From Bacteroidaceae bacterium (GTDB lineage: Bacteria > Bacteroidota > Bacteroidia > Bacteroidales > Bacteroidaceae), in the NCBI GenBank assembly GCA_017547385.1, contig JAFYPU010000023.1:1-35916 (forward strand): a stretch of DNA of 35,916 nt, written 5' to 3'. Position numbers and translations under genes: made by a program. Each line of letters starts with the position of its first letter. Position 1 is the first letter of the stretch. The notes beneath the pieces were generated by a model. It was not told the DNA's origin, searched no databases, and saw only the letters and a list, made by a program, of their open reading frames with translations. Of the stretch, positions 7,056-32,800 are shown in pieces.

Positions 7056-8390
7056 TCAAAGCACGCCTTGCGCCATCATGGCACGCGCCACTTTCATAAA
7101 TCCGGCGATGTTCGCTCCCTTCACATAGTTCACGTAACCATCGTCCTGTTTTCCGTATTTGCAACACTGCTCGTGAATGTTCTCCATGATTTGGTGCAAA
7201 CGCGCATCCACTTCCTCGGCACTCCAGCCCAGATGTTCGGCATTCTGCGTCATTTCGAGACCGCTCACCGACACACCTCCGGCATTCGAAGCCTTACCGG
7301 GAGCATAAAGGATGCGAGCCTTCAAGAATGCTGCTACGGCTTCGGGAGTTGAAGGCATGTTTGCTCCTTCACTCACGGCAATACATCCATTTTCAAGCAA
7401 CATCTTTGCATCATCGCCATCCAGTTCGTTTTGTGTGGCACAAGGGCAAGCGATGTCGCACTTCTCTGCCCAAGGACGTCCGCCGGCCACATATTTCACA
7501 CCATATTCCTCTGCATATTCGCGAATACGACCGCGATAGAGATTCTTGAGTTCCATGATGTAGTCGAGCTTTTCGCGAGTAATTCCGTCAGGGTCGTAGA
7601 TATATCCGTCTGAGTCGCTCATCGTTACCACCTTGGCACCCAATTGCAAAAGCTTCTCGGCCGTGTATTGCGCCACATTGCCCGAACCACTCACACACAC
7701 CGTCTTACCCTTGATGTCGATATTGCGTGTTTTCAACATCTCCATGAGGAAGTAAACATTACCGTAACCGGTTGCCTCAGGACGAATGAGTGAGCCGCCG
7801 AAGTCAATACCTTTTCCGGTGAAAGTACCTGTGTTTTCGCGGGCCAGTTTCTTATACATGCCATACATATAGCCCACTTCGCGACCACCCACACCGATAT
7901 CTCCTGCCGGCACGTCGGTATCAGGACCGATGTGTCGCCACAATTCCGTTACAAAGGCCTGACAGAAGCGCATCACTTCAGCATTGGATTTGCCGCGCGG
8001 CGAAAAATCCGAACCGCCTTTCGCACCTCCCATGGGGAGTGTGGTGAGAGAATTCTTGAAAGTCTGTTCGAAGGCAAGGAACTTCAAAATACCGGGTTTC
8101 ACAGAAGAGTGAAAGCGAATGCCGCCTTTGTAAGGGCCGATGGCATTGCAATGCTGCACACGGTAACCCATGTTGGTCTGCACGCGGCCGCTATCGTCTG
8201 TCCATGTTACGCGGAAAGTGAACATGCGTTCAGGAATGCAAAGACGTTCCACCAGATTGGCAGCTTCGAACTCCGGATGTTCGTTATACACTTCTTCAAT
8301 GCTTTCAAGCACTTCTTGCACAGCTTGATAGTATTCGGGTTCGCCGGGGAAGCGGCGTTTCAGTTCATTGATTACTTCAACGGTTTTCAT
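7056..8390 (-). CDS. gdhA: NAD(P)-dependent glutamate dehydrogenase
   Basis: The enzyme interconverts 2-oxoglutarate plus ammonia and glutamate in the cytoplasm. The 444 residues fit the hexameric bacterial family. Visible are YKGGIRFHSSV (87-97), the catalytic-lysine loop PMGGAKGG (119-126, Lys124), PAGDIGVGGRE with Asp163, and the nucleotide-binding SGSGNVAQYTAEKL near 235. NADP is likely from the family but cannot be read with certainty. It has its own promoter and is flanked by terminators, so it is probably a single-gene unit. With glnA and carAB it forms the ammonia-assimilating set of this window. Confidence 0.95.
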   Translation of the reverse strand: MKTVEVINELKRRFPGEPEYYQAVQEVLESIEEVYNEHPEFEAANLVERLCIPERMFTFRVTWTDDSGRVQTNMGYRVQHCNAIGPYKGGIRFHSSVKPGILKFLAFEQTFKNSLTTLPMGGAKGGSDFSPRGKSNAEVMRFCQAFVTELWRHIGPDTDVPAGDIGVGGREVGYMYGMYKKLARENTGTFTGKGIDFGGSLIRPEATGYGNVYFLMEMLKTRNIDIKGKTVCVSGSGNVAQYTAEKLLQLGAKVVTMSDSDGYIYDPDGITREKLDYIMELKNLYRGRIREYAEEYGVKYVAGGRPWAEKCDIACPCATQNELDGDDAKMLLENGCIAVSEGANMPSTPEAVAAFLKARILYAPGKASNAGGVSVSGLEMTQNAEHLGWSAEEVDARLHQIMENIHEQCCKYGKQDDGYVNYVKGANIAGFMKVARAMMAQGVL

Positions 8391-12575: not shown

Positions 12576-12640
12576 ATTTCTGCAGTGCTTGCAGAATTTT
12601 CCGCAGTGCTTGTAGAAAATTCTGCAAGCACTGCAGATTT
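12576..12640. repeat. Mini-array B: three abutting 21-22-base palindromic units
   Basis: Units are 12576-12597, 12598-12618 and 12619-12640. Unit 1 is TTCTGCA-GTGCT-TGCAGAA, a perfect 7-base palindrome around GTGCT. Unit 2 is a near copy, and unit 3 is the same unit inverted (core AGCAC). Core centres are exactly 21 bases apart. The region is non-coding; a frame open through it into the alpha-galactosidase gene is not its true start. A possible decayed unit lies at 12554-12575. Confidence 0.85.
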
Positions 12641-12759
12641 TCATCCCTCGCGCCTATGCATTTTCATAAACCGGAAGCCATGTTTCCCAAGGACTTCTGC
12701 AAAGGATGCTCGCGGTGGAAAAACTCCTTTCTTTGGCAAGATATTTCAAGTCTCTCGTC

Positions 12760-12796
12760 TGTTCTCACCCGACTTCATGCAAAAAGACTATCTTTG
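12760..12796 (+). promoter_or_regulatory. Promoter of the GH27 gene
   Basis: TATCTTTG at 12789-12796 is a perfect -7 box. The -33 side is poor (TGTTC near 12760). The start would be near 12803, 25 bases before the ATG at 12828. Confidence 0.65.
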
Positions 12797-12827
12797 CGGT
12801 GAAAAATCACCTAAAATCACACAAACT

Positions 12828-14648
12828 ATGAAGACAAAGCTTTTCATGCTTTTATCAACGCTCTCCATCGCCCTGGCTTCGATGGCAGACAACCCACCCC
12901 TCATGGGCTGGAGTTCATGGAACACTTACGGTTTCCTCATCAACGATTCGGTCATTAAGGTACAGGCCGATGCAATGGTAAAACTGGGTTTTCTGGAAAA
13001 GGGATACAATCACATCAACATCGATGACGGCTTCTTCGGCGGCCGCGACAAAGAGGGGAAGCTACTCATTCACCCCAAACGTTTCCCCAACGGACTGAGA
13101 CCACTGGTGGACTACATCCATTCAAAAGGACTGAAAGCCGGTATCTACTCTGATGCCGGAGCCAACACTTGCGCTTCATACTGGGGAAAGCCCAAAGACA
13201 CCATCGGCATCGGTGTAGGCCTGTATCAACACGATGAGGAGGACCTCAACCTCTATTTCAACGAGCTCGATTTCGACTTTATCAAGGTGGATTATTGCGG
13301 TGCCGATGGCGGCAACAACGCTGACGGGCTGGACCTTGACGTAGAGCAGCGATACAAAGAAATTGCGGCAGCCATCAAGAGCACAGGCCAAGAAGATGTT
13401 ACGTGGAACATCTGCCGATGGGCGTTCCCGGGTACGTGGGTTTGCAACATCGCCGACTCCTGGCGTACCACCGAGGACATTTATCTGGGATGGGAGTCCG
13501 TCAAAAGCATCATCGGACAAAGTCTCTACTTATCGGCTTACGCCAGCTACGGACACTACAACGATATGGACATGCTGGAAGTGGGCCGCGGACTCACCGA
13601 AGAAGAAGACAAGACACACTTCGGCATGTGGTGCATCATGAGCTCGCCCTTGCTTATCGGCTGCGATCTGAACGACATCAAGGGAAATGCACTTACGCTC
13701 ATGCAGAACGAAGAACTCATTGCCCTCAACCAAAACAATCTGGGATTGCAAGCTTATGTCGCAGACAAGGTGAATGGTTGCTACATCCTCGTTAAAGACA
13801 TTGAAACACTCTATGGAAACAAAAGAGCCATTGCCATCTACAACCCCAACAACCAGAAAAAGACTGTAGACGTGAACTTCTCGAAATTGGATTTGGCCGG
13901 CAACATCATGGTACGCGACCTCTTTGAACATCAAGACATCGGTGTGCACAGTGAGACCATGCGCGTCAGCGTTCCCGCACACGGCACCCGCATTTACAGT
14001 CTGGCAGCCGACAAGCGCACTGAGCGCACCATCTATGAAGCTGAAACCGCATGGCTCTCTTGCTATCAGGAATTGAAAAACAACGAAGCATTGGGAACAG
14101 CCGTATATACAGAAAGCGGATCATGTTCCGGCGGTGCTTATGTGGGTTGGTTGGGCAACAAATCAGAGAACGACCTGCAATGGCGCAACGTTTACAGCGT
14201 GGAAGGTGGCGACTATGACATGGCACTATCATTCATCTGCAACGAAAATCGCAATGTGAAGATCAGTGTCAACGATGGAGCACCCATCGAATTCGTTGCC
14301 AACTCCGGAAGTTGGTCACAACCGGGCAGCAAAAGCTTCTCCATACACCTGAACAAGGGTAACAACGTTATCCGTCTCTATTCCGACAGCGGATGGATGC
14401 CGGACATCGACCGCATGACGCTCACGCGACACGAAGAAACCGGACTCCCGGCCATCGACAACAACCAAGACCTACAAATTCAAATCAGAGGGAACCAACT
14501 TACCGTCAAGCCCTCTTCCCCCTCCCGCATACAAATTTGCGATACCAACGGACGCTATTTGTTCAACGACATCGTAACGGGAACTTTATCACTGACACTT
14601 CCACAAGGAAGCTATGTAATCAATGGTCAGAAAGTGGTTATCAGATAA
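12828..14648 (+). CDS. Secreted GH27 alpha-galactosidase with CBM and C-terminal sorting tail
   Basis: Signal peptide MKTKLFMLLSTLSIALASMA, then a GH27 barrel from NPPLMGWSSWNTYG (residue 23). The nucleophile is Asp155 in FIKVDYCG and the acid/base Asp210 in ADSWRT; HYNDMDMLEVG and MSSPLLIGCDL are also family marks. Residues about 402-545 form a CBM6/35-like domain opening with YEAE (Glu404). The last 50 residues (QICDTNGRYLF ... YVINGQKVVIR) look like a short type IX secretion sorting domain. It should remove terminal alpha-galactose from dietary galactosides or host glycans such as blood group B. The ATG at 12828 is chosen because translation upstream runs through mini-array B and past the promoter. 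It is 606 residues. No SusC/SusD genes accompany it. Confidence 0.93.
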   Translation: MKTKLFMLLSTLSIALASMADNPPLMGWSSWNTYGFLINDSVIKVQADAMVKLGFLEKGYNHINIDDGFFGGRDKEGKLLIHPKRFPNGLRPLVDYIHSKGLKAGIYSDAGANTCASYWGKPKDTIGIGVGLYQHDEEDLNLYFNELDFDFIKVDYCGADGGNNADGLDLDVEQRYKEIAAAIKSTGQEDVTWNICRWAFPGTWVCNIADSWRTTEDIYLGWESVKSIIGQSLYLSAYASYGHYNDMDMLEVGRGLTEEEDKTHFGMWCIMSSPLLIGCDLNDIKGNALTLMQNEELIALNQNNLGLQAYVADKVNGCYILVKDIETLYGNKRAIAIYNPNNQKKTVDVNFSKLDLAGNIMVRDLFEHQDIGVHSETMRVSVPAHGTRIYSLAADKRTERTIYEAETAWLSCYQELKNNEALGTAVYTESGSCSGGAYVGWLGNKSENDLQWRNVYSVEGGDYDMALSFICNENRNVKISVNDGAPIEFVANSGSWSQPGSKSFSIHLNKGNNVIRLYSDSGWMPDIDRMTLTRHEETGLPAIDNNQDLQIQIRGNQLTVKPSSPSRIQICDTNGRYLFNDIVTGTLSLTLPQGSYVINGQKVVIR

Positions 14649-15093: not shown

Positions 15094-16173
15094 ATGCGAA
15101 ACGTAACATTGGTTCTTGAAGACGGCTCCAAATTCCACGGAAAGTCGTTTGGTTATGAAAAGCCCGTACAGGGCGAAGTGGTGTTCAATTCTGCCATGAC
15201 AGGATACCCCGAAGCGCTGACCGATCCGGTCTTCGCCGGTCAAATCATGGTGATGACATATCCGCAAGTGGGCAACTACGGTGTACCCTCGCTTGACGAA
15301 AAGACCGACGGACTGGCCAACTTCACAGAGAGCGATCGCATACAACCCGCCTGTCTCATCGTGAGCGATTACAGCGAAACCTATTGCCACTGGAACGCAA
15401 AAGAAAGTTTGGGCGAATGGCTCGTGCGCGAACAAGTGCCGGCCATCACAGGTATCGACACCCGCGAAATTACCAAAACTCTGCGTGAGAACGGAGTGAT
15501 GCGCGGTCGCATCGTGTTCGAAGGCTTGGCAGAAGAGGCAGAGGCCGCTCCCGTTTATGACGAAGTGAACTACGCTGCTCAAGTTTGCTGCAAGGAAGTG
15601 ATACGTTACAACGAAGGTGCTCCCAAGAAAGTGGTGGCAGTGGACTGCGGCATCAAAAACAACACCCTGCGCAGCCTCATCCGCAGAGGCGTTGAGGTAA
15701 TTCGTGTGCCTTGGGACTATGACTTCAACACATTGGAATTTGACGGCCTGCTCCTCGGTAGCGGTCCGGGCAATCCCGACACCTGCGAAGCCACAGTGGC
15801 CAACATCGTTCGCTTCCTGCAAAATGACAAAATGCGTCCTTGCTTAGGTATCGGTATGGGCAACCTGTTGCTCGCCAAAGCTGCCGGTGCAAAGACCTAC
15901 AAGCTGAAGTATGGCCACCGCACCCACAACCAACCCGTGCGCAAGGTAGGCACCAACACCTGCTTCATCACCACACAAACCCATGGTTATGCCGTGGATG
16001 CTGCCACACTGCCCGAAGAATGGACAACCTCATACGTCAATATGAACGATGGCACCAACGAAGGCATAAGCCACATTCACAAACCTTGGGCTGCTGTTCA
16101 GTTCCAACCCGAAGCTTGCCACAACCCCGTGGCAGCCGACCCCATTTTCGATGAATTCGTAACGCTTTTATAA
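15094..16173 (+). CDS. carA: Carbamoyl-phosphate synthase small subunit, glutaminase site lost
   Basis: CarA normally hydrolyses glutamine and passes ammonia through a tunnel to CarB. The 359 residues have the normal N-terminal domain (VVFNSAMTGYPEALTDP, GNYGVPSLDE) and class I amidotransferase domain. The nucleophile elbow usually reads GICxG(N/H)Q but here reads GIGMGNL, with Gly254 in place of Cys and Leu258 in place of Gln. QNHG has become QTHG (Thr296), and the catalytic FHPEA has become FQPEA (Gln338), with only Glu340 kept. The frame is intact and the rest well conserved (AGAKTYKLKYGHRTHNQPV), so this is not simple decay. Glutaminase activity should be absent and ammonia the likely nitrogen source. 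carB follows after 18 bases. Confidence 0.93.
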   Translation: MRNVTLVLEDGSKFHGKSFGYEKPVQGEVVFNSAMTGYPEALTDPVFAGQIMVMTYPQVGNYGVPSLDEKTDGLANFTESDRIQPACLIVSDYSETYCHWNAKESLGEWLVREQVPAITGIDTREITKTLRENGVMRGRIVFEGLAEEAEAAPVYDEVNYAAQVCCKEVIRYNEGAPKKVVAVDCGIKNNTLRSLIRRGVEVIRVPWDYDFNTLEFDGLLLGSGPGNPDTCEATVANIVRFLQNDKMRPCLGIGMGNLLLAKAAGAKTYKLKYGHRTHNQPVRKVGTNTCFITTQTHGYAVDAATLPEEWTTSYVNMNDGTNEGISHIHKPWAAVQFQPEACHNPVAADPIFDEFVTLL

Positions 16174-16191: not shown

Positions 16192-19100
16192 ATGAAAGAG
16201 ATAAAAAAAGTTCTGCTGTTGGGTTCCGGTGCCCTTAAAATCGGAGAAGCCGGCGAATTTGACTATTCCGGTTCACAAGCGCTCAAGGCACTGAAAGAAG
16301 AAAACATCGAGACCATTCTCATCAACCCCAACATTGCGACCGTGCAAACCAGTGAGGGAGTGGCCGATCGCACCTACTTCCTGCCCGTTACACCGTTCTT
16401 CGTTGAAAAGGTGATTCAAAAGGAACGCCCCCAAGGCATCATGTTGGCCTTTGGCGGACAGACGGCATTGAACTGCGGTGTAGAGTTATACAAAAGCGGT
16501 ATTCTTGACAAATACGACCTGCAAGTGCTTGGCACCCCCGTACAAGCCATCATGGACACCGAGGACAGAGATTTGTTCGTACAGAAACTGAACGAAATCG
16601 ATGTTAAGACCATCAAGAGCGAAGCATGCGAGGACATCGAAAGTGCTCGCCGCGCAGCCAAAGAGCTGGGCTACCCCGTCATCCTGCGTGCCGCATACGC
16701 ACTCGGAGGATTAGGTTCCGGCTTCTGCGACAATGAAGAAGAACTCAACAAGTTGGCAGAAAAGGCCTTCTCGTTCTCTCCGCAGGTGTTGGTGGAAAAG
16801 AGTTTGAAGGGCTGGAAGGAAATCGAGTTCGAAGTGGTGCGCGACCGTTTTGACAACTGCATCACTGTGTGTAACATGGAAAACTTCGACCCGCTCGGCA
16901 TCCACACTGGTGAAAGTATCGTTATCGCTCCCTGCCAAACACTCAACAACAACGAAGTGCTGAAGTTGCGCGAACTGGCCATCCGCATTGTGCGCCACGT
17001 CGGCATTGTGGGTGAATGTAACGTGCAATATGCTTTTGACCCCTTCTCTGAAGACTATCGCGTCATCGAAGTTAACGCTCGTTTGAGCCGTTCGTCTGCA
17101 CTTGCCTCCAAGGCAACCGGTTACCCCCTTGCCTTTATCGCAGCCAAGTTGGGTCTCGGTTACGGCCTCTTCGACTTGAAGAACACAGTAACAAAAACCA
17201 CAACTGCGTACTTCGAACCGACACTTGACTACATCGTTGGTAAATTCCCGCGTTGGGACCTCGGAAAATTCCGTGGCGTGGACCGCGAAATCGGTTCCTC
17301 CATGAAATCCGTGGGAGAAGTGATGTCCATCGGTCGCACCTTCGAGGAAGTTATCCAAAAGGGATTGCGCATGATCGGACAAGGCATGCACGGTTTTGTG
17401 GATAACAAGGAACTGAAAATCGATGACGTCGATGCAGCCTTGCGCGAGCCGACCGACAAGCGTATCTTTGTTATCGAAAAAGCCTTCGACCAAGGTTATA
17501 CCGTCGATCAGATTTACGAACTTACGAAAATCGACAAATGGTTCTTGGAAAAGCTGAAAGGCATTCATGACACCGACCAAGAAATCCACGCTGTGGGCAA
17601 CATCAACTTGCTGGACAACGAATTGCTGAAGAAAGCCAAGATACAAGGATTTACCGACTTCCAGATTGCCCGTGCTTTGGGATTGGAGAAAGAAATGGAG
17701 CCCGAAAAGGCTGCGCTCATCGTGCGCCAACGCCGCAAACAAGCCGGTATCATCCCTTATGTCAAGCAAATCGACACCTTGGCTGCCGAATATCCCGCAC
17801 AAGCCAACTATCTGTATCTCACATATCTGGGTCAGGCACATGACATCACTTTCGAAAACGACAAGCGCAGCGTTGTGGTATTAGGATCCGGTGCTTACAG
17901 AATTGGTTCTTCGGTTGAATTTGACTGGTGCGGTGTGCAAGCACTTAACACCATCCGCAAGGAGGGTTATCGCTCCATTATGATTAACTACAACCCCGAA
18001 ACGGTATCGACCGACTACGACATGTGCGATCGTCTCTACTTTGACGAACTCACATTTGAGCGCGTGATGGACGTACTCGACCTTGAATGCCCCTACGGAG
18101 TGGTTGTATCGACCGGTGGACAAATACCTAATAACTTGGCCATCCGTTTGGATGAACAACACATCCCCCTGCTTGGAACACAAGCCAAATACATCGACAA
18201 TGCCGAGGACCGCGACAAGTTCTCTGCCCTGCTCGACCGCATCGGTGTGGACCAGCCCGAATGGAGTGCCCTGACTTCGATGGACGACATCAACTCTTTC
18301 ATTGAAAAAGTGGGCTTCCCCGTATTGGTACGTCCCAGCTACGTGCTTTCAGGTGCTGCCATGAATGTTTGCTCCAACCAGGAAGAACTTGAACGCTTCC
18401 TGAAACTTGCTGCCAACGTGAGCAAGAAACACCCTGTGGTGGTGAGCCGTTTCTTGCAACATGCCAAGGAGGTGGAAATGGACGCTGTGGCTCGCGACGG
18501 CGAAATCATTGCCTATGCCATTAGTGAACACGTGGAATATGCCGGTGTGCACTCCGGAGATGCCACCATTCAGTTCCCGCCCCAGAAACTCTATGTGGAA
18601 ACAGCCCGTCGCATCAAGAAAATCTCAAAGCAGATTGCCAAAGAATTGCACATCAGCGGACCGTTCAACATTCAGTTCCTGGCCAAAGAAAACGACATCA
18701 AAGTGATCGAATGTAATCTTCGTGCCAGCCGCTCCTTCCCCTTCGTGAGCAAGGTTTTGAAGATTAACCTCATTGAACTGGCTACTCGCATCATGCTGGG
18801 CCTGCCCGTTGAAAAGCCCTCCAGCAACTTGTTCGATCTCGACTATGTGGGCGTGAAAGCCTCTATGTTCTCCTTCAACCGACTGCAGAAGGCTGACCCC
18901 GTGCTCGGCGTCGACATGGCCTCAACAGGCGAAGTGGGATGCTTGGGCGAAGATTCACGCGCAGCCCTTCTGAAGAGCATGCTCTCCGTGGGCCATCGCA
19001 TCCCCGAAAAGAACATTCTTCTTTCAACCGGCGACGGCAAACAAAAAGCAGAAATGCTTGAAGCTGCACAGATGCTCAAGGATAACGGATACAACCTGTA

Positions 19101-19407
19101 TGCCACAGGTGGAACAAGCCGCTATCTTACTGAAAACGGCATTGAAAACACGTTGGTATACTGGCCTAGCGAAAGCGGACAACCGCAAGCTCTCGACCTC
19201 TTGCACAACAAAGAAATCGACATGGTGGTTAACATCCCGAAAAACCTGTCGACCGGCGAACTGACCAATGGTTACAAAATCCGCCGTGCCGCCATCGACC
19301 TCAATATCCCGCTTATCACCAATGCCCGATTGGCTTCGGCATTCATCGGCGCGTTCTGCACAATGACGATGGACGACCTCGAAATCAAGAGTTGGCAGGA
19401 GTATTAA
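16192..19407 (+). CDS. carB: Carbamoyl-phosphate synthase large subunit
   Basis: It makes carbamoyl phosphate from bicarbonate, ammonia and two ATP for pyrimidines and arginine. At 1071 residues it has full family length with two ATP-grasp halves. The first opens with LGSGALKIGEAGEFDYSGSQ and contains FGGQTALNCG, YALGGLGSG and ARLSRSSALASKATGYPLA. The second opens near residue 564 (GSGAYRIGSSVEFDWCG) and contains STGGQIPNNLA, RPSYVLSGAAMNV and NLRASRSFPFVSK. The C-terminal MGS-like regulatory domain covers roughly 935-1071. Phrases such as VCNMENFDPLGIHTGES and DFDFIKVD-free KQIDTLAAEYP recall animal CPS1/CAD more than E. coli CarB. A strong terminator ends the operon. Confidence 0.97.
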   Translation: MKEIKKVLLLGSGALKIGEAGEFDYSGSQALKALKEENIETILINPNIATVQTSEGVADRTYFLPVTPFFVEKVIQKERPQGIMLAFGGQTALNCGVELYKSGILDKYDLQVLGTPVQAIMDTEDRDLFVQKLNEIDVKTIKSEACEDIESARRAAKELGYPVILRAAYALGGLGSGFCDNEEELNKLAEKAFSFSPQVLVEKSLKGWKEIEFEVVRDRFDNCITVCNMENFDPLGIHTGESIVIAPCQTLNNNEVLKLRELAIRIVRHVGIVGECNVQYAFDPFSEDYRVIEVNARLSRSSALASKATGYPLAFIAAKLGLGYGLFDLKNTVTKTTTAYFEPTLDYIVGKFPRWDLGKFRGVDREIGSSMKSVGEVMSIGRTFEEVIQKGLRMIGQGMHGFVDNKELKIDDVDAALREPTDKRIFVIEKAFDQGYTVDQIYELTKIDKWFLEKLKGIHDTDQEIHAVGNINLLDNELLKKAKIQGFTDFQIARALGLEKEMEPEKAALIVRQRRKQAGIIPYVKQIDTLAAEYPAQANYLYLTYLGQAHDITFENDKRSVVVLGSGAYRIGSSVEFDWCGVQALNTIRKEGYRSIMINYNPETVSTDYDMCDRLYFDELTFERVMDVLDLECPYGVVVSTGGQIPNNLAIRLDEQHIPLLGTQAKYIDNAEDRDKFSALLDRIGVDQPEWSALTSMDDINSFIEKVGFPVLVRPSYVLSGAAMNVCSNQEELERFLKLAANVSKKHPVVVSRFLQHAKEVEMDAVARDGEIIAYAISEHVEYAGVHSGDATIQFPPQKLYVETARRIKKISKQIAKELHISGPFNIQFLAKENDIKVIECNLRASRSFPFVSKVLKINLIELATRIMLGLPVEKPSSNLFDLDYVGVKASMFSFNRLQKADPVLGVDMASTGEVGCLGEDSRAALLKSMLSVGHRIPEKNILLSTGDGKQKAEMLEAAQMLKDNGYNLYATGGTSRYLTENGIENTLVYWPSESGQPQALDLLHNKEIDMVVNIPKNLSTGELTNGYKIRRAAIDLNIPLITNARLASAFIGAFCTMTMDDLEIKSWQEY

Positions 19408-19915: not shown

Positions 19916-22900
19916 ATGAAACATTTATCAAAATTGTTGTTGGTTGCCGGACTTGCTTTCCCCGCTTTGTTATCGGCACAACAAAGGGTTACGGATGTAG
20001 ATCGGACGAAATACCCCGACTACTCCACCACTTTTAATCCGGACGAGTCGCTAAGGGCTAAACCCTTCCGCGCCACCAAAGGTAAAACAAAGGCTGCGGA
20101 TGCACTCCCCGACCATGTGAATAATGCTGAAAACATGTATTTCCCTCCGGTGTTCAACCAAGACGGTGGCTCATGCGGATCAGCCTCACGCATTTCCTAT
20201 ATGTTCAGCTACGAACTGGCCGCTTATCGCAACCTTGATGGTTCGAAACCCGAGAACTATTATCCCTCACACTTCGTATGGCTACATACGTATGCACCCA
20301 ACGGACAAGGCAAAGACGAATTTGTGCAGTTTGTGGGTGTTCCCTCTGCTGCCACTTATGGCGGACAGACCTATTCTTCCTTGTTTGGTAATCAGGACAC
20401 AGAACAAGATGATTTTGGATGGATGCAAGGCTATGACAAATGGTTTGAAGCCATGCACAACCGTATGCTCAAACCTCAAAACTTTCCGCAAAGCATAGCC
20501 ACAGAAGAAGGCCGCAATGCCGTGAAACGCTGGCTCTACAACCACAATGGAGACAACGATTTTCACGCCGGCGGAATCTGCGGTATCGGTGTGGCATCGG
20601 GCGGTGTATGGAAAAACATTCCGAAGACTGCCACGAACGACGCCATTGGTGTAACAGGCAAATACTACGTGAAAGAATGGGGTACGCAAGTGGACCACGC
20701 TCTGACCATCGTCGGATATGACGACCGCATTGAGTTTGACCTTGACGGTGATGGTGTTTATGGAGAGGCAGCCGCAGACGAGCGTGGAGCTTGGATCATT
20801 GTCAATTCGTGGGGCAACACCTGGTGTAACAAAGGTTTCATCTATTGTCCGTATGCCTTTGGCGGAAGTGCTTTCAAGAATGACGGAACAGCCGGAAACC
20901 GCACTTTCAACGGCGACTTCTGGTGGCCGGAAATCTATCACGTGCGCAAAAACTATCGCCCCCTGCGTACCATCAAACTCGAGATGGAATACTCTCGCCG
21001 AAGCGAAATCGCATTAAGCGCCGGTGTGTCAAGCGACTTGTCAGCCGAGAAGCCGCAAAAGTCTGTTCCGTTCATCCACTTTATCTACTCGGGTGATGGT
21101 AACTATGGCAACACCAATCCGGCTCCTGAAATTCCGATGCTGGGACGCTGGGCTGATGGTAAACTGCACACAGAACCGATGGAATTTGGCTACGACCTGA
21201 CCGACCTCTCTGCCACTTTCGACAAGAACATGCCGCTCAAGTATTTCTTTATTGTTGACACCAAAACATGGGCACAAGGCAAGGGTAAAATTCACAAAGC
21301 CTCCATTATCGATTACGAACACGATCCGGCAGGCATAGAAACACCGTTCGACCTCAGTGGTGAGGGAGTTGAAATCAAGAATGCCGGTGAACAAACCATC
21401 ATCTCGGTGGTGGTATACGGACAAGGCTACTTTGCACCTCAGAACCCCTCATTTGATGGAGCCACACTCAGTTGGCAAACTCCTATGCGCTCGAGCCACA
21501 TCATTCAGTCGTATAACATTTATGCAGATGATGTGCTGATTGAAAACGTAGGAAAGGATGTGCAGTCTTATCAAATTGACAATGCCACAGCCGGTAATTA
21601 TAGCATCACTGCCGTATATGAAGATGGCACAGAATCTGCAAAAGCCACAGTGAACGCACCGATAGCGAATGCTACCACCAACACGGCCATCAATTTGAAG
21701 CAATCCGGATTTACCATCCCCAATATCTTCAGCACCAAGTTTGAACAAGCCACCATTGAATTCTACATCAACCCGACCACCTTGGCAAACTGGAACCAAA
21801 GCGGCGGACCCGGTTGGGGAACTTTCATGTTCCATGCCAATGCAGACGGACGCTACACTGCAGGATGGGATACCGGCAACCGTGTTAACTCAAGCACAAC
21901 ACTTAGCACGAGCACATGGAAGCACGTGGCCATGGTCATCGACCGCAGCACGCTTACACTATATATTAATGGTAAGAAGAGTGGTTCGGTCAATTCATCC
22001 ACTTATAGTGGTGTTGGCGGCTTTGGCGATCTCACATTCTCTGCCAACGGAACTCAGAATGCACAGAATGCCAGATACGATGAAATCCGCATTTGGAACT
22101 ATGCTCGTTCGGCCACAGAAGTGCAGAAAAGCTACAATGTGGAATACACCGGAAGCATTCTTCCCCAGGGACTGATTGCCTACTACAAGGGAGATACCTT
22201 GCATACTGCTGACGGAACTGTGAAACTGCGCGATTGCGTAGGCGGAAACCACGCCACAATCCTCAACAGCAGTTTCCAGATGCTCAACATCTCGAAGAGT
22301 AATCCTCCTCGCCTTGTTTCCCCGACGGACGAACTCGCAGTAAGCATTGACGAGCCTGCAGAACCTGTTTATGCCGGTATTCCGACAACTTTCACTGCCA
22401 CCCACAGCCAATCAACCAATGCGTTGAAGTGGACCGCTGCCGGGGCAGGTGTAGAAAATTTGGCAGTAGCAAGTCCCACTCTCACATTCAGCGAGGCTGG
22501 CCAATACACCATTTCGGTGGAAGCCGCCAATGCCAAGGGCGAAACAGTAACAGCCACTCGCGACATCACCGTTAACGAAATTCCTGACATTGACGCAGGA
22601 TTTAAGGCCACAAAGACCAACGTTCCTGCCGGCGAGCGCGTTACTTTCTTGGTAAACAAACCCGTGTTGGGTTACCTCTACGAATGGTCTATGCCCGGTG
22701 CAGATGTTGAAAAAGTTACGACCATGAACGCTGCGGCTTCATATCAAGCCAAAGGCGATTACACCGTAACGCTCACCGTTACAGCTCCTGATGGGCAAAG
22801 CAAATCTTCCAGTGTCAACATCTCAGTGGTGGAAGTGGCACCCGTCGCAGCTTTCACCATTGCCCCCGGAGTTATTCTCAAAGGCGAAAACACTTTCCTC

Positions 22901-24880
22901 CGCGACCAATCAAAGTTTGCGCCCAACAAGTGGCTGTGGCATATCTGCGGCCCCACCGGCGACTACATCATCAACGGACAAAACTCTTCGTTCTCGCCCG
23001 ACAAACCCGGTATTTACGATGTTACACTCACAGCCTCCAACAACACCGGCAGCCACAAGGCAACGCGTGAACGCGGTCTCATTGTTTGCAATGCCGACAG
23101 TAAGAATGGTCTGAACTTCGGAACTGGCGGAGCCAGACTCACCGCAACGAAAGTTCCCTTCACCACAGACCAAAACACTTTCTCCATTGAATGGTGGATG
23201 AACTCCGGACGCCTTGCCACCTATTGCAATGGCATTGGCGACAGCGAAGCAAGTTTGATGCTGAAGACCAACGCCACCGGTGCAATGGAGCTTCACATCA
23301 ACAGCAAATCTGTTTCTTCGGGTGACGACTTCATCATTCCCGGCGAATGGCATCATTATGCTGTTACCTTCAACAACAGAAGCACCATCTTCTATCGCGA
23401 CGGCATTCAGTTCAGCAAAAAGTCGATAATGCAAGCCAAGTTGCCCGCCATTGCCAACTTCAGCATCGGCACAGCAACCGCTCCGCAGACCGGACAGATG
23501 GACGAATTCCGCGTATGGAACAAGGCACTCAGTCTGGAACAGCTCAAGGAAGTGGCCAATGCCCCAATCACCGACATCGCAGCTGCCGAAGCCAATGGTT
23601 TGGTTGTATATTACTCATTCAACCAGAGCGGTGGTGATGTGCAGGATGGCACGACCAACAGCAACCATGGCATTCGCAGTGGGTTCGGTCCTGATGGCGA
23701 TGCATGGGGACTCTCAAAAGGTGTGTTCAGCCTCAACTTCGAAGCGAATGAAACGAAAGCCGACATTTCTGCCGACTATCTGAAGAACTACAAGAAAGCC
23801 TTCAGCAGCGATGCCAGCAAGTGCGTCAACCCGCAGCTCAGCAGCCGCACTTTTGCCATCAAAGATTGGACACTCGAAAACACCATCGTCAATGGCAGCA
23901 TCACCACCGGTGCTCACGTTGACAAGGCTAAGAACAACTGCTTCACCGTTACCACCGGTTGGGACAATTTTGCCTCCGCGCTGACCGACCACAAGGTGTA
24001 TCAGACCATCACACTGCCGGAAGGCTCTTACACATTCACAGCCACTTATGACGACACATACGAAGGACAAAGCGGAAGCAGCTACATCGTGGCAGCTACA
24101 GGCAAGGGACTGCCCAACACAGACGAACTTAACGCCGAAAGCCTGGCACACCAGCTGATGCTCCCGAAGAGCGGCTCATGCGCCGGCAACAGCATCACAT
24201 TCGTGCTGACTGAGGAAACCGAGGTGAGCCTTGGCCTCGTGGTCAACATGAACGGTCAGCTGTGTATGACCATTCAGAACTTCACACTGACACGCAGCAA
24301 CGTAACTTCTCTCGAGGCTGATGGTGCCAATGGTTACGACCTGGAAGTTGACGCAACAGGTTATAGCTCGCTCTACCTGCCCTACCCCGTTGAAATACCG
24401 GAGGGAGTGGTGGCCTATTGTGTGACGAATGTTGATGAAACCACAGCTGCCGTTACGCTCGAAGCCATTGGCGACGGAGTGATTCCGGCACGCACGGGTG
24501 TGATTATTGAAACCACGGCCGGCACGCACCACTTCAACCCGGCTTCACAAAGCGGAACAGCCACCAGCCTCATGGTGGGCCACACCGAAGATACCAACGC
24601 TGACACCGGCAAGAGCTATTATGCATTTACCAACATGAATGGTGAAAAGCAATTCAGTCTCCACACCGGTTCACTCCTGCCCGCCCACCGTGCATTCCTG
24701 GAAGTGGAAAGCGGCAGCCTCCCCGAAGTTCTCAGCATCAACATCGTGGAGACCGGCATCGGTCAGCTCATCACCCCGGGACAAGGTCAGGCAAAGGTGT
24801 ATGACCTCAGCGGTCGCCGTGTGAAGCAAAGCTCCGGCGGCATCTACATCATCAACGGACAAAAGGTGGTGGCAGAATAA
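19916..24880 (+). CDS. Secreted papain-like (C1) multidomain protein with LamG and PKD domains
   Basis: The 1654-residue protein begins with a signal peptide (cleavage near LLSAQQ). Residues about 65-320 are a papain-fold domain with FNQDGGSCGSASRISY (Gln82, Cys87), VDHALTIVGYDD (His261) and NSWGNTWCNKGF (Asn297). Aligned on the following helix, the nucleophile position falls on Ala90 and Cys87 sits at the structural-Cys position, so activity is in doubt. Then come an Fn3-like domain (about 515-590), a LamG-like domain (590-745), PKD-like domains (815-1060), a second LamG (1065-1250), a carbohydrate-binding-like domain (1290-1460) and a Prevotella-type beta domain. It ends in YDLSGRRV ... IINGQKVV, probably a type IX sorting signal. 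It is likely cell-surface. It has its own promoter and terminator. Confidence 0.85.
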   Translation: MKHLSKLLLVAGLAFPALLSAQQRVTDVDRTKYPDYSTTFNPDESLRAKPFRATKGKTKAADALPDHVNNAENMYFPPVFNQDGGSCGSASRISYMFSYELAAYRNLDGSKPENYYPSHFVWLHTYAPNGQGKDEFVQFVGVPSAATYGGQTYSSLFGNQDTEQDDFGWMQGYDKWFEAMHNRMLKPQNFPQSIATEEGRNAVKRWLYNHNGDNDFHAGGICGIGVASGGVWKNIPKTATNDAIGVTGKYYVKEWGTQVDHALTIVGYDDRIEFDLDGDGVYGEAAADERGAWIIVNSWGNTWCNKGFIYCPYAFGGSAFKNDGTAGNRTFNGDFWWPEIYHVRKNYRPLRTIKLEMEYSRRSEIALSAGVSSDLSAEKPQKSVPFIHFIYSGDGNYGNTNPAPEIPMLGRWADGKLHTEPMEFGYDLTDLSATFDKNMPLKYFFIVDTKTWAQGKGKIHKASIIDYEHDPAGIETPFDLSGEGVEIKNAGEQTIISVVVYGQGYFAPQNPSFDGATLSWQTPMRSSHIIQSYNIYADDVLIENVGKDVQSYQIDNATAGNYSITAVYEDGTESAKATVNAPIANATTNTAINLKQSGFTIPNIFSTKFEQATIEFYINPTTLANWNQSGGPGWGTFMFHANADGRYTAGWDTGNRVNSSTTLSTSTWKHVAMVIDRSTLTLYINGKKSGSVNSSTYSGVGGFGDLTFSANGTQNAQNARYDEIRIWNYARSATEVQKSYNVEYTGSILPQGLIAYYKGDTLHTADGTVKLRDCVGGNHATILNSSFQMLNISKSNPPRLVSPTDELAVSIDEPAEPVYAGIPTTFTATHSQSTNALKWTAAGAGVENLAVASPTLTFSEAGQYTISVEAANAKGETVTATRDITVNEIPDIDAGFKATKTNVPAGERVTFLVNKPVLGYLYEWSMPGADVEKVTTMNAAASYQAKGDYTVTLTVTAPDGQSKSSSVNISVVEVAPVAAFTIAPGVILKGENTFLRDQSKFAPNKWLWHICGPTGDYIINGQNSSFSPDKPGIYDVTLTASNNTGSHKATRERGLIVCNADSKNGLNFGTGGARLTATKVPFTTDQNTFSIEWWMNSGRLATYCNGIGDSEASLMLKTNATGAMELHINSKSVSSGDDFIIPGEWHHYAVTFNNRSTIFYRDGIQFSKKSIMQAKLPAIANFSIGTATAPQTGQMDEFRVWNKALSLEQLKEVANAPITDIAAAEANGLVVYYSFNQSGGDVQDGTTNSNHGIRSGFGPDGDAWGLSKGVFSLNFEANETKADISADYLKNYKKAFSSDASKCVNPQLSSRTFAIKDWTLENTIVNGSITTGAHVDKAKNNCFTVTTGWDNFASALTDHKVYQTITLPEGSYTFTATYDDTYEGQSGSSYIVAATGKGLPNTDELNAESLAHQLMLPKSGSCAGNSITFVLTEETEVSLGLVVNMNGQLCMTIQNFTLTRSNVTSLEADGANGYDLEVDATGYSSLYLPYPVEIPEGVVAYCVTNVDETTAAVTLEAIGDGVIPARTGVIIETTAGTHHFNPASQSGTATSLMVGHTEDTNADTGKSYYAFTNMNGEKQFSLHTGSLLPAHRAFLEVESGSLPEVLSINIVETGIGQLITPGQGQAKVYDLSGRRVKQSSGGIYIINGQKVVAE

Positions 24881-25359: not shown

Positions 25360-25390
25360 TTTGCCCTTCACGCACCTTGCACTATATTTG
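25360..25390 (+). promoter_or_regulatory. Promoter of glnA
   Basis: TTTG (25360-25363), a 19-base spacer and TATATTTG (25383-25390) match the consensus perfectly. Transcription should start near 25397, which rules out in-frame start codons at or before 25397. Confidence 0.85.
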
Positions 25391-25426
25391 TCGGGCATGA
25401 ATTTGAAATACGTAAAACAAAATACC

Positions 25427-26929
25427 ATGAGTAAAGAATTAACCATGAGCCCCAACAAGGTGGTGGCCTACCTCGGAAAACCTAACACAGCGCTCACAAA
25501 AGCCGACATCATCCGCTTTATCAAAGAAAACGAAGTGCGGATGGTCAACTTCATGTATCCGGCCGGAGATGGTCGCCTCAAGACGCTCAATTTTGTCATC
25601 AACAACGAAGCCTATCTTGAAGCCATCCTCACCTGCGGCGAGCGCGTTGACGGCTCCAGCCTGTTCCCCTTTATCCAAGCCGGAAGCAGCGACTTGTATG
25701 TGCTGCCACGCTTCAGCACGGCCTTTCTCGATCCTTTTGCCGAAATCCCCACTTTGTCAATGCTTTGTTCCTATTTCAACAAAGACGGAGAGCCCCTCGA
25801 AAGTTCTCCGGAGCACACACTGCACAAAGCATGCAAAGCCTTCAAGGAGGTTACGGGGATGGACTTTGAGGCCATGGGCGAATTGGAATACTATGTCATC
25901 GCCCCCGACACCGGAATGTTTGCCGCCACCGACCAGAAAGGATACCACGAGTCTGCTCCTTATGCCAAGTTCAACGAATTCCGCACACAGTGCATGGCCT
26001 ACATCGCACAAGCCGGCGGACAAATCAAATACGGCCACTCCGAAGTGGGCAACTTCACCATAGACGGAAAGGTGTACGAACAAAACGAAATTGAATTCCT
26101 CCCCGTCAAAGCAGAGAATGCTGCCGACCAATTGGTCATCGCCAAATGGATGATTCGCAACTTAGCCTTCCAAAAAGGATATGACATCACCTTTGCACCG
26201 AAAATAACAGTCGGCAAGGCCGGATCAGGACTGCACATCCACATGCGCATCACCAAAGACGGCAAAAACCAAATGCTCGAGAACGGCAGCCTTTCGGCCA
26301 CAGCGCGCACAGCCATTGCCGGCATGATGAAATTGGCACCCTCCATCACAGCTTTCGGCAACACCAACCCCACCTCCTATTTCCGCCTTGTGCCTCATCA
26401 GGAAGCACCCACCAACATCTGCTGGGGCGACCGCAACCGCTCTGTGCTGGTGCGCGTACCCCTGGGATGGGCAGCCAAAGCCGACATGTGCCAATTGGCC
26501 AACCCATTGGAAGACCTCAGCCACTATGACACCACACAAAAACAAACGGTAGAAATGCGTTCGCCCGATGGCTCAGCCGATGTCTATCAGCTCATTGCCG
26601 GATTGGCCGTGGCATGCAGACACGGATTTGAAATGGAGAACGCCCTCGACGTGGCAGAGCGCACTTATGTGAACGTAAACATCCACCAAAAGGAAAACGC
26701 CGACAAGCTGAAAGACCTGGCACAACTGCCCGACAGTTGCGCAGCCTCAGCCGATTGCCTGCAAGAGCAACGTGCCATCTTCGAAAAGCACAACGTGTTC
26801 AGTCCGGCCATGATTGACGGCATCATCAAGCAATTGCGTGCCTTCAACGACAAGACCTTGCGCAGCGAGATTGAGAACAACCAAGAAGAAATGCTGCGAC
26901 TGGTGCAACGCCACTTCCACTGCGGATAA
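25427..26929 (+). CDS. glnA: Glutamine synthetase (type I-like)
   Basis: It makes glutamine from glutamate, ammonia and ATP. From ATG 25427 (MSKELTMSPNK) it is 500 residues, with a beta-grasp N-terminal domain and a catalytic domain. Marks include ELEYYVI, the metal-binding HSEVGNFTIDGKVYEQNEIEF, GSGLHIHM (266-273), NPTSYFRLVPHQEAPTNICWGDRNRS (NRS at 337-339) and MRSPDGSADVY. I see no adenylylation-type Tyr loop near the C-terminus. The longer frame starts upstream of the transcription start, so it is not used; the ATG at 25445 is an alternative. A lipoprotein gene follows after 30 bases, possibly in the same transcript. Mini-array C lies upstream and could affect expression. Confidence 0.94.
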   Translation: MSKELTMSPNKVVAYLGKPNTALTKADIIRFIKENEVRMVNFMYPAGDGRLKTLNFVINNEAYLEAILTCGERVDGSSLFPFIQAGSSDLYVLPRFSTAFLDPFAEIPTLSMLCSYFNKDGEPLESSPEHTLHKACKAFKEVTGMDFEAMGELEYYVIAPDTGMFAATDQKGYHESAPYAKFNEFRTQCMAYIAQAGGQIKYGHSEVGNFTIDGKVYEQNEIEFLPVKAENAADQLVIAKWMIRNLAFQKGYDITFAPKITVGKAGSGLHIHMRITKDGKNQMLENGSLSATARTAIAGMMKLAPSITAFGNTNPTSYFRLVPHQEAPTNICWGDRNRSVLVRVPLGWAAKADMCQLANPLEDLSHYDTTQKQTVEMRSPDGSADVYQLIAGLAVACRHGFEMENALDVAERTYVNVNIHQKENADKLKDLAQLPDSCAASADCLQEQRAIFEKHNVFSPAMIDGIIKQLRAFNDKTLRSEIENNQEEMLRLVQRHFHCG

Positions 26930-29864: not shown

Positions 29865-32800
29865 ATGAGAAAATTTTTCTTGTTATCACTCCTACTCACC
29901 TTGTGGGGAACAGCCACAAGTAAAGATATCACGGGTGATGGAAGCGAAGGTACATTCAACATTTCTGAAATCAACTCACAAGGTTGGACTTCGGTATCTG
30001 CAGGAACCGGTTGGACAATTTCCATGGATGTAGAAAACCCCAATGGAGCATCTTTCAATGAATGGGGTAGCAGCATCTTTGCGATTGGCAGCGATGGCAC
30101 ACCCACAATCAATGTCTACAAAGGCATTCAATTATATCTACAAAGCTCTACCAATGGCGGCGGCAAATTGGATGCAGTGTTTGATGGTGGCGACCACTTG
30201 ATAGATAACGTAACTTACACGGGCAACTTCAGCGCTACGATCTCATACAATGGCAAGAATCAGTTGCAAATAAAGACAACAAATGCTTCGGGCACTGTTG
30301 CCGTGAATGATTACACATTAACCAACACACTGACAGAGTTTTCGCAACTCTCATACGCTTTGCCCACAGGTATCAATGTAAAGAACTTGCAACTCACACC
30401 GTTGAGCAAGAGTGTGGATTACCCCACTGCAGCAACGGTGTCTAACGGCAAGTACACTTTCACTTCTAACAAGATTTTGTACGACGGCAATTGCAACAAG
30501 ATCCGCTTTACGCTTACCGAATCAGCTGCTTTCTACAAGAATGGAAAGAACCGTATGAGCTTTGACTCATTCGTTTTGCGCGATGCCGGTGGAAATGAAG
30601 TTGAGTTGAAAGACACTTACTTCACTGGCAACAACACTGGTAAAGTTTTCGCGAATATGTTGGATGGAGAAAACGCCACTTATTGTTCAGGAACTTGGGA
30701 AACAGGTACAGAAGACGACTGGTTCGAAATCACCCTGCCCAACAGCATTGACCTTGGTGGTGCATTCTCATTCTCATTCGTAACAGAGAATACCACAATG
30801 AATGCGAAGGCTTTTAATATCGCGATGTCTTACGAAGCACAGACCGGTTATACTTTCAGCATTTCCGGTAATGGTGAAAACGAAGTTATTGTAAAACACG
30901 GCGAAGAGGAACTCATTGCCGGCAGCAAAATGGATATTACCGACTTCAATGCTGACAACGTAACTGCTACTGAAATTCCCGGTTACACTTGGAACATCGT
31001 TGTGGATCACGAGAACAAGACCATCACACTTGTTTATACTGAAGCAGCTGTTGTTGAAAATCCCGACGCTGTTGTAGCACTCATCACCCGTATCGGCGGT
31101 GCTGCCATCGCTGACAAGTTCAAGTTCAAGCTCGAACCTTCTCTCAACTCAAAGCAAGAAGTATTCGTACTTGGCAATGAAGATGGCAAGATTTTGATCA
31201 AGGGTACTACCATCAGTGCCATCACCACAGGTCTCGGTTGGTATCTCAACAACGTGGCAAAAGTGAACATTGCATGGAACGCATTGAACGAAACCACATT
31301 GGCAGACAACAACAGCGGCAAAGGACTTGAAATAAAAGAAGGCGAAGTGGACACTTCTGTTGAAGGAAAGCAACTCAGCAAACGTCGCAGAAAGGCAAGT
31401 CGCAATGCAGAACCTGCCGCAAAGCCTTACTTTGACTTCACAGGTATTAACCTCCCCCTTCCCTCTGACAAAGAAGTGCACGTATCAGACGCGAAGTACC
31501 GCTACTATCTGAACACTTGTACCTTCGGTTACTCTATGACCTCATGGACATGGACACGTTGGCAACAGGAAATCGACTGGATGGCACTCCACGGTATCAA
31601 TATGCCTCTCCAGCTCGTAGGTATGGAAGAAGTATGGCGCAAGTTCTTGACCATGGAAGATGCTAATGGTAATCGCAAGTATGGTTACACTGATGAAGAA
31701 GCCAAGGCTTTCGTTGCTGGTCCTGCCTTTATCGCATGGTGGGCAATGAACAACCTTGAAGGTTGGGGTGGTACTGCTGCTGGTTCAAAGAGCGGTTATA
31801 ATAACTTGCCCGGTGCCGGTGGTGTGCAGGACGATGCTTGGTATGCTCGTCAGAAGAAACTCGCTAAGCAGATTGTTGATGCACAACGTGCGCTCGGCAT
31901 GCAGCCCGTATTGCCCGGTTGGTCGGGTATGGTGCCCACTAACTTTGCTTCAAAGTCTGGTTACGCGACTCGTGGTAATGGAGGCAACTGGGCTGGTGAT
32001 TTCGTACGTCCCTTGCTTTTGAATGTAAATATTGGTGCTGATAAATATGCTGAAATTGCAGCAGACTACTACGCATGTTTGAAAGAAGTGATGGGCGAAA
32101 GCCAATATTATTCTATGGACCCCTTCCACGAAGGTGGTGGTGCTGGTACTATGGAAGACTATAAAGCACTCTACGCTGCTATGGAGGCAGCCCAACCTGT
32201 TTCACAGTGGGTAATCCAGCAATGGCAGTGGAGCGAAACACAGAAATATTCGCTCACAGCAGTTCCCGCAGGAAAACTTATCGTACTTGACCTCTTCTCT
32301 GACGGTTCTCCCGCATTCGATGGCTACAATGGTTATGCTCCTCAAGACGCTGTATTCTGCGCTATCCCCAACTTCGGCGGTCGCTCAGGTTTGATGGGTC
32401 GTTTGCAGAATGTAACGGACAACTACTTCAAGTTCAAGGGTAAGTATGCAAGCATCAAGGGTATCGGTACGGCTCCTGAAGCGATTGAGCAGACGCCCGT
32501 AACTTATGATTTGATTTATCAACTCCCCTGGATGAACGGTGTGAAGCCTGATGTAGCAGCGTGGGTGGACAATTATGCAGAGGCTCGTTATGGACAAGAC
32601 AATAAGGTCGTCAAAGAAGCGTGGAGTTTGCTCCGCCAAGGTCCTCTCAACTACGGTGCCGATGGTATCCAAGGTCCTGTGGAAGATGTTTGGGCAGCTC
32701 GTCCTAACCTCGATGCCAACAAGGCAAGTTCATGGGGTAAGACGCTCGCTGATGCAGGTAACACCTATACACCAGCACGTCGTCAGATGTTGATTGATGC

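Follow-up and report, generated by a model that had tools for sequence, protein, structure and literature searches.

Does a bacterial carbamoyl-phosphate synthase (CPS) whose small subunit has lost the residues for glutamine hydrolysis run on free ammonia? The question is raised by the carA gene of a Bacteroidaceae bacterium, which lies in a stretch of 35,916 nucleotides (hereafter the window). A preliminary description had read the replaced residues as the mark of a candidate ammonia-dependent synthase, with the small subunit kept for structure or regulation. Such an enzyme would stand apart: in the excerpted text of PMC6245113, glutamine is the nitrogen donor of E. coli CPS and, by extension, of all bacterial CPSs, and in that of PMC4655335 every CPS type except CPS1 uses glutamine.

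A small subunit with a replaced glutaminase site

The CPS genes of the window, and two genes of nitrogen metabolism given for context only, are as follows.

7056..8390, minus strand: gdhA, NADP-specific glutamate dehydrogenase, ammonia assimilation, context only (NF010634, 907.6 bits, cut-off 822)
15094..16173, plus strand: carA, CPS small subunit, 359 aa, predicted to be glutaminase-dead (open frame; TIGR01368, 391.5 bits)
16192..19407, plus strand: carB, CPS large subunit, 1071 aa, conserved normally (TIGR01369, 1522.7 bits, cut-off 1027)
25361..26929, plus strand: glutamine synthetase-like protein, 522 aa, context only (TIGR00653, 220 bits, under the cut-off of 429)

The carA score is above the TIGR01368 cut-off of 307.35 bits, and 18 bases separate the carA stop codon from the carB start, in carA-carB order. 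When the window's genome assembly was searched for a second carA, as had been proposed, none was found with the PF00988 profile, the single match being the window carA; the same search was positive in 14 of 14 control genomes.

Gly254, Leu258, Thr296 and Gln338 had been pointed out earlier, and both the codons and the alignment confirm them. Three further replacements were found, Val46, Ser223 and Asn344. The complete set is given below, with frequencies among the 223 Cys-containing rows of the alignment described in the next section.

15229..15231, plus strand: Val46 (GTC) for Ser, E. coli Ser47; Ser in 223/223 Cys-containing rows, Ala in the sister species and in human CPS1
15760..15762, plus strand: Ser223 (AGC) for Asn, E. 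coli Asn240; Asn in 223/223 Cys-containing rows
15853..15855, plus strand: Gly254 (GGT) for the nucleophile Cys, E. coli Cys269; codon GGC in the sister species
15865..15867, plus strand: Leu258 (CTG) for Gln, E. coli Gln273; Leu also in human CPS1
15979..15981, plus strand: Thr296 (ACC) for Asn, E. coli Asn311; Asn in 223/223 Cys-containing rows
16105..16107, plus strand: Gln338 (CAA) for the catalytic His, E. coli His353; His in 223/223 Cys-containing rows
16123..16125, plus strand: Asn344 (AAC) for Gly, E. coli Gly359; Gly in 222/223 Cys-containing rows

The lone Cys-containing row without Gly344 belongs to a near relative, G013 (locus L027). At position 258 the Cys-containing rows have Gln (215), His (6) or Leu (2). 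Leu258 of the motif GIGMGNL, noted earlier, is thus not diagnostic by itself. Glu340 (E. coli Glu355) is retained. We take E. coli Gly359 to be part of the ammonia tunnel, and Ser47, Gln273 and Asn311, as positioned by the alignment, to be glutamine-binding residues of CarA. Cys-269 and His-353 are described as essential to glutamine hydrolysis in the excerpt of PMC6245113.

E. coli-type CarAB (CPS II) has the same gene order and subunit sizes as the window pair, and like it scores above the profile cut-offs, but it keeps Cys269, His353, Ser47, Asn311 and Gln273, the equivalents of which are all replaced in the window. As far as sequence tells, the window protein, with the profile and the carB adjacency of the TIGR01368 family, is a CarA by descent, yet one that fails the catalytic features of that family. 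A loss of CarA glutaminase activity is strongly supported as a prediction.

Two other positions were considered as markers of the loss and rejected. In the excerpt of PMC4655335, human CPS1 carries Gln at the position of E. coli Gly293; the window residue at this place, His278, which might have plugged the tunnel, is ancestral (218/223 Cys rows) and therefore uninformative about glutaminase loss. Tyr at the position of E. coli Phe314 is common in Cys rows (145/223).

The same losses in a sister species, and their rarity

A sister species, represented by the roe-deer colon MAG RGIG4240 (L032 = G017), has a CarA 92% identical to that of the window, with the same losses. It has Ala at position 46 where the window has Val, and the codon of the lost Cys is GGC, versus GGT in the window. 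Of the 16 changed invariant columns described below, 15 are common to both species. With these shared residues, the GGC codon and a carA dS of 0.78, the earlier view that no sequencing error is involved stands.

CarA residues were read at 247 loci, corresponding to 227 distinct rows. This sample is non-random: it comprises all 45 full CarAs of the genus, the best 80 named loci, and 114 of the 238 matching genomes of the order, mostly from the top of the match ranking. Cys254, Ser46, Asn296, His338 and Glu340 are all kept in 223 of the 227 rows, which are mostly close relatives. The four Cys-less rows all come from the window's genus, and are those of the window, of its sister, of G032 (L318; motifs MAIGLGQQ and FLPEA) and of G002 (L320; GIGLGMQ, QTHS and FQPDD). 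Their genomes are drafts in several contigs, with completeness of 86.5%, 81%, 89% and 82%. In all four species carA and carB share one contig, with carA directly upstream and the frames intact.

The CarA search matched 238 of 393 order genomes, and 206 of the 325 near-complete ones, so it misses distant CarAs. Within the genus, all 19 genomes with a completeness of 90% or more gave one strong match each, no genome gave more than one, and 13 of the 39 genomes below 90% gave no full CarA. No report of a bacterial CarA without the Cys was found among the full-text literature matches listed, a body of text with few subscription papers.

At least two independent losses within the genus

CarB trees place the window and its sister (clade 1) with the Cys-bearing G050 and G013 (support 98), and G032 and G002 (clade 2) with the Cys-bearing G031/L053 (support 100). 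The fewest changes that explain Cys loss on the CarB tree are two. A single clade of the four Cys-less members was rejected by an AU test (p = 2.4e-6 with 50 rows, p = 6e-94 with 89 rows), on quick trees with one substitution model, and with L079, which has 62 private CarB changes, left out of the 89-row tree; L079 was also left out of one further count. Given these trees and this rejection, the two Cys-less pairs are independent, and by the CarB phylogeny the CarA Cys has been lost at least twice within the genus. The Cys is replaced by Gly in both pairs, and the other losses differ. G032 keeps Asn296 and has H338L and S46A; G002 keeps Ser46 and has N296T, H338Q and E340D.

The CarA of G013 (L027), from a genome 63% complete, is a possible intermediate. 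Its triad is intact, yet it has G344N and five other unusual changes. As G344N occurs there while Cys, His, Ser and Asn are unchanged, changes in the tunnel segment may precede those in the triad.

At L053, one open frame of 1467 aa spans both carA and carB and encodes a fused bacterial CPS; the long open frames seen at the carA locus of other genomes suggest further examples.

Constraint on CarA and CarB

The strong conservation claimed around the replaced sites holds only in part. The window CarA is changed at 16 of 125 columns that are invariant in 79 relatives; when any other relative is left out in turn, the maximum is four private changes. By count, 7 of the 16 columns are active-site or tunnel positions listed above. 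Identity of the window CarA to seven relatives is 61–68%, and six of these are 76–93% identical to the seventh, L035. The window CarB is 81–86% identical to the same seven relatives and 98.2% identical to that of the sister; of the 474 CarB columns without variation in 44 relatives, it differs at 10.

Selection on the gene was estimated, as had been suggested. The window–sister comparison gave a dN/dS of 0.055 in carA and of 0.017 in carB. Four Cys-bearing carA pairs gave 0.029–0.091, but at high dS (1.3–3.1), and two further pairs were unusable, one having an infinite dS and the other being near-identical. The ratio of carA dN to carB dN is 3.5 in clade 1 and 7.5 in clade 2, versus 1.1–2.3 in three other pairs. 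In the clade-2 pair, where synonymous sites are saturated, CarA is 60% identical and CarB 94%. A fast CarA together with the low clade-1 dN/dS indicates a burst of change followed by renewed constraint, CarA being held in clade 1 less tightly than CarB. CarA nevertheless evolves far more quickly than CarB, above all in clade 2, and some relaxation of constraint is therefore involved. The earlier proposal of a structural or regulatory role for CarA fits the clade-1 dN/dS, with that qualification.

CarB T538A is common to the two Cys-less clades, and none of the 79 other distinct CarB rows has it. The chance of such an overlap is about 0.05, a rough figure that depends on hand-entered clade-specific counts (6 and 4 of 463). 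T538A, the one sign of CarB adaptation found and a weak one, is only suggestive. A cluster of CarB changes at 316–367 (p = 1.8e-5 with 44 relatives, the region being picked post hoc) was discarded: with 79 relatives it fails, as columns 316, 332, 340, 350 and 367 vary in Cys-bearing ones. L367I was discarded as a specific change as well, being present in 5 of 79 others.

Other glutamine-dependent enzymes in the Cys-less genomes

The class I glutaminase profile PF00117 matched four proteins in the window's genome and four in its sister: CarA, HisH, a protein of about 600 aa, and GuaA. HisH keeps GICVGLQ and the 600-aa protein has GICRGTQ in both genomes. GuaA is short (about 435 aa; L134 = G000:C28, L135 = G017:C9), and neither the Cys elbow nor the His-Glu part is present in its glutaminase domain; its synthetase part clears the cut-off of 339 with 457 bits. 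This short GuaA carries the sole GMP synthetase C-terminal domain found in each clade-1 genome. Among 395 genomes of the class, counting that of the window, full-length kin of it (84–85%) were found in two; these kin, L155 and L156, are from one other genus (g6), and lie there next to a normal GuaA. The short GuaA seems to be an older paralogue that was either gained or kept.

Searches for CTP synthase (PF06418) were negative in the four Cys-less genomes, all incomplete. It was found in 44 of 58 genus genomes, including 19 of the 19 with a completeness of 90% or more. The gene is missing from 4/4 Cys-less genomes versus 3/41 Cys genomes in which CarA is full (Fisher p = 2.3e-4), and, among genomes below 90%, from 4/4 versus 3/22 (p = 0.0023); both tests treat related genomes as independent, which their kinship contradicts. 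Two of the three Cys genomes without CTP synthase, G013 (63% complete) and G031 (68%), are near the Cys-less clades in the CarB trees. The absence is not proof by itself, because 12 of 37 other genus genomes below 90% also lack the gene, although the Cys-less G002 and G032 are among these 12.

At least 43 of the best 80 named loci encode, upstream of carA, a long PurF with the ECGVA motif (exact motif); this protein was not found in either clade-1 genome, both incomplete. Both have a short PurF starting with MGGFFG, without the class II Cys. No class II amidotransferase was found with PF13522 in the window's genome or its sister, a profile that is weak even on real relatives. In the same two genomes PurL keeps GVCNGCQ. 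As PurL and HisH keep their Cys, glutamine use has not been abandoned; in clade 1, two or three nucleotide enzymes appear to have had their glutaminase lost or exchanged, but PurL and HisH have not.

The MGGFFG PurF (about 470 aa; L186–L194) was seen in 9 of 11 order genomes searched, that is, in every match within the order, and the two PurF matches from outside the order keep ECGIFG or MCGIVG. This PurF is possibly ammonia-dependent in many Bacteroidales.

Discussion

Taken as a whole, the initial interpretation of this locus is partly supported. We consider it likely that a glutaminase-dead CarA has been kept as the scaffold of an ammonia-dependent, CPS1-like CarAB synthase. With the residues of its glutaminase site lost, the enzyme probably uses free ammonia instead, like CPS1 of human liver, and we infer, as the best reading, that the synthase takes it directly. 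CarB would make carbamate from free NH3, which would enter by a path bypassing the old glutaminase site and reach the carboxyphosphate site, as proposed for CPS1, and CarA would stay as a pseudoglutaminase shaping or stabilising the complex. Ammonia is abundant in the hindgut. In the excerpt of PMC4655335, an NH3 route bypassing the glutaminase site is proposed for CPS1, and less clearly for E. coli, in which blocking or perforating the tunnel leaves the activity on external ammonia normal. According to the excerpt of PMC6245113, the E. coli enzyme requires ammonia at very high levels, so that efficient use would call for either high ambient ammonia or an adapted CarB.

The nearest known system is vertebrate CPS1, the best PDB match of both the window CarA (364 bits) and CarB (1210 bits), in which an inactive class I glutaminase-like domain is likewise retained beside an intact synthase. 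The loss of the Cys and the GNL motif, which had been cited earlier for CPS1, are both present in the human enzyme (PDB 5dot), whose aligned motifs read TDPAY, GISTGNL, QNHGYA and FHPEV. Three positions are shared: the Cys is lost, the Ser47 equivalent is replaced (Ala in CPS1), and Leu stands at the Gln273 position. The differences are that the Cys became Ser in CPS1 and Gly in the window, and that human CPS1 keeps the catalytic His and the Asn311 equivalent, both lost in the window. In the excerpt of PMC4655335, the Cys-to-Ser change explains the inability of human CPS1 to use glutamine. CPS1 is also mitochondrial, ammonia- and N-acetylglutamate-dependent and made as one fused chain, whereas the window CarAB consists of two open reading frames. 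We infer that the window CarAB works like CPS1, yet is a separate, bacterial, two-subunit invention.

A bacterial precedent in an amidotransferase family is that of the single-domain (type N) NAD synthetases, which use free ammonia in vivo (PMC3376133, excerpt). Those enzymes have no glutaminase domain, and their use of ammonia is regarded as the ancestral state; the window CarA represents a derived loss, with the subunit retained but predicted to be dead. According to Table 1 there, as excerpted, the glutaminase part is never missing from carAB or guaA in the 600 and 730 genomes covered; the table counts genes, not residues. In Pyrococcus and Thermococcus, a carbamate kinase-like synthesis of carbamoyl phosphate has ammonia as its nitrogen source (PMC6022934, excerpt), but that enzyme has the amino-acid-kinase fold, in organisms with no canonical CPS genes, and the window genes are carAB by profile.

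The excess of carA dN over that of carB, present in both clades, also fits slow decay, and thus speaks against the scaffold reading. CarA could be on its way out: if nucleosides are salvaged, CTP synthase is gone and little carbamoyl phosphate is needed, CarB might make do poorly on ambient ammonia and CarA drift under relaxed selection. The divergence of the clade-2 CarA pair, with its differing further losses in G032 and G002, and the failure to find CTP synthase in the four Cys-less genomes would agree with this. We nevertheless judge it unlikely, as the clade-1 dN/dS is that of a constrained gene, the carA frames are intact directly upstream of carB in four species, and 7 of the 16 changed invariant columns are active-site or tunnel positions.

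It is much less probable still that ammonia comes from an unknown docking glutaminase in place of the dead site, or that the unassembled part of the genome encodes a second carA or another amidotransferase as its source. The four genomes are only 81–89% complete, and the 13 of 39 less complete genus genomes without a full CarA show that assembly or search gaps are real; but PF00988 revealed no second carA in the window's genome, no genus genome had more than one strong CarA, and a hidden copy would have to escape detection in four separate genomes. As for an artefact of sequencing, assembly or binning, the four genomes are multi-contig drafts, and the sister is a MAG. Yet two assemblies with many synonymous differences, the lost-Cys codon included, have the same residues, and carA and carB are on one contig in four species. 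An artefact is all but refuted by the two independent assemblies.

Beyond the scaffold reading, the loss of the CPS glutaminase, at least twice in this genus of gut Bacteroidales, may have produced bacterial counterparts of CPS1 as part of a broader move of nucleotide synthesis away from glutamine and towards free ammonia. The short GuaA of the window's lineage, which probably also has only a Cys-less PurF, and the missing CTP synthase of the Cys-less species would belong to the same move. We regard this extension as conceivable and somewhat doubtful. An ammonia-rich niche, or an escape from glutamine-mimicking inhibitors, could be the cause, which is speculation.

A lineage with at least two losses and with close relatives that still bear the Cys makes the transition from CPS II to CPS I testable in bacteria, including the order in which residues are lost and the adaptation of the synthase to free ammonia. 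As the curated profile labels the window CarA "glutamine-hydrolyzing", annotation and metabolic models based on it would probably be wrong for these species.

Two minor observations concern the remainder of the window. Three large proteins, encoded at 12585–14648, 19916–24880 and 29865–34811, have similar C-terminal tails (GSYVINGQKVVIR, GGIYIINGQKVVAE and KGVNIINGKKVIL, respectively). They are probably exported, judging from their N-termini, and the tails are perhaps a common sorting signal. Close to the window edge, at 475–667, there is a tandem repeat with a unit of 85 bases, in 2.3 copies with 99% matches.
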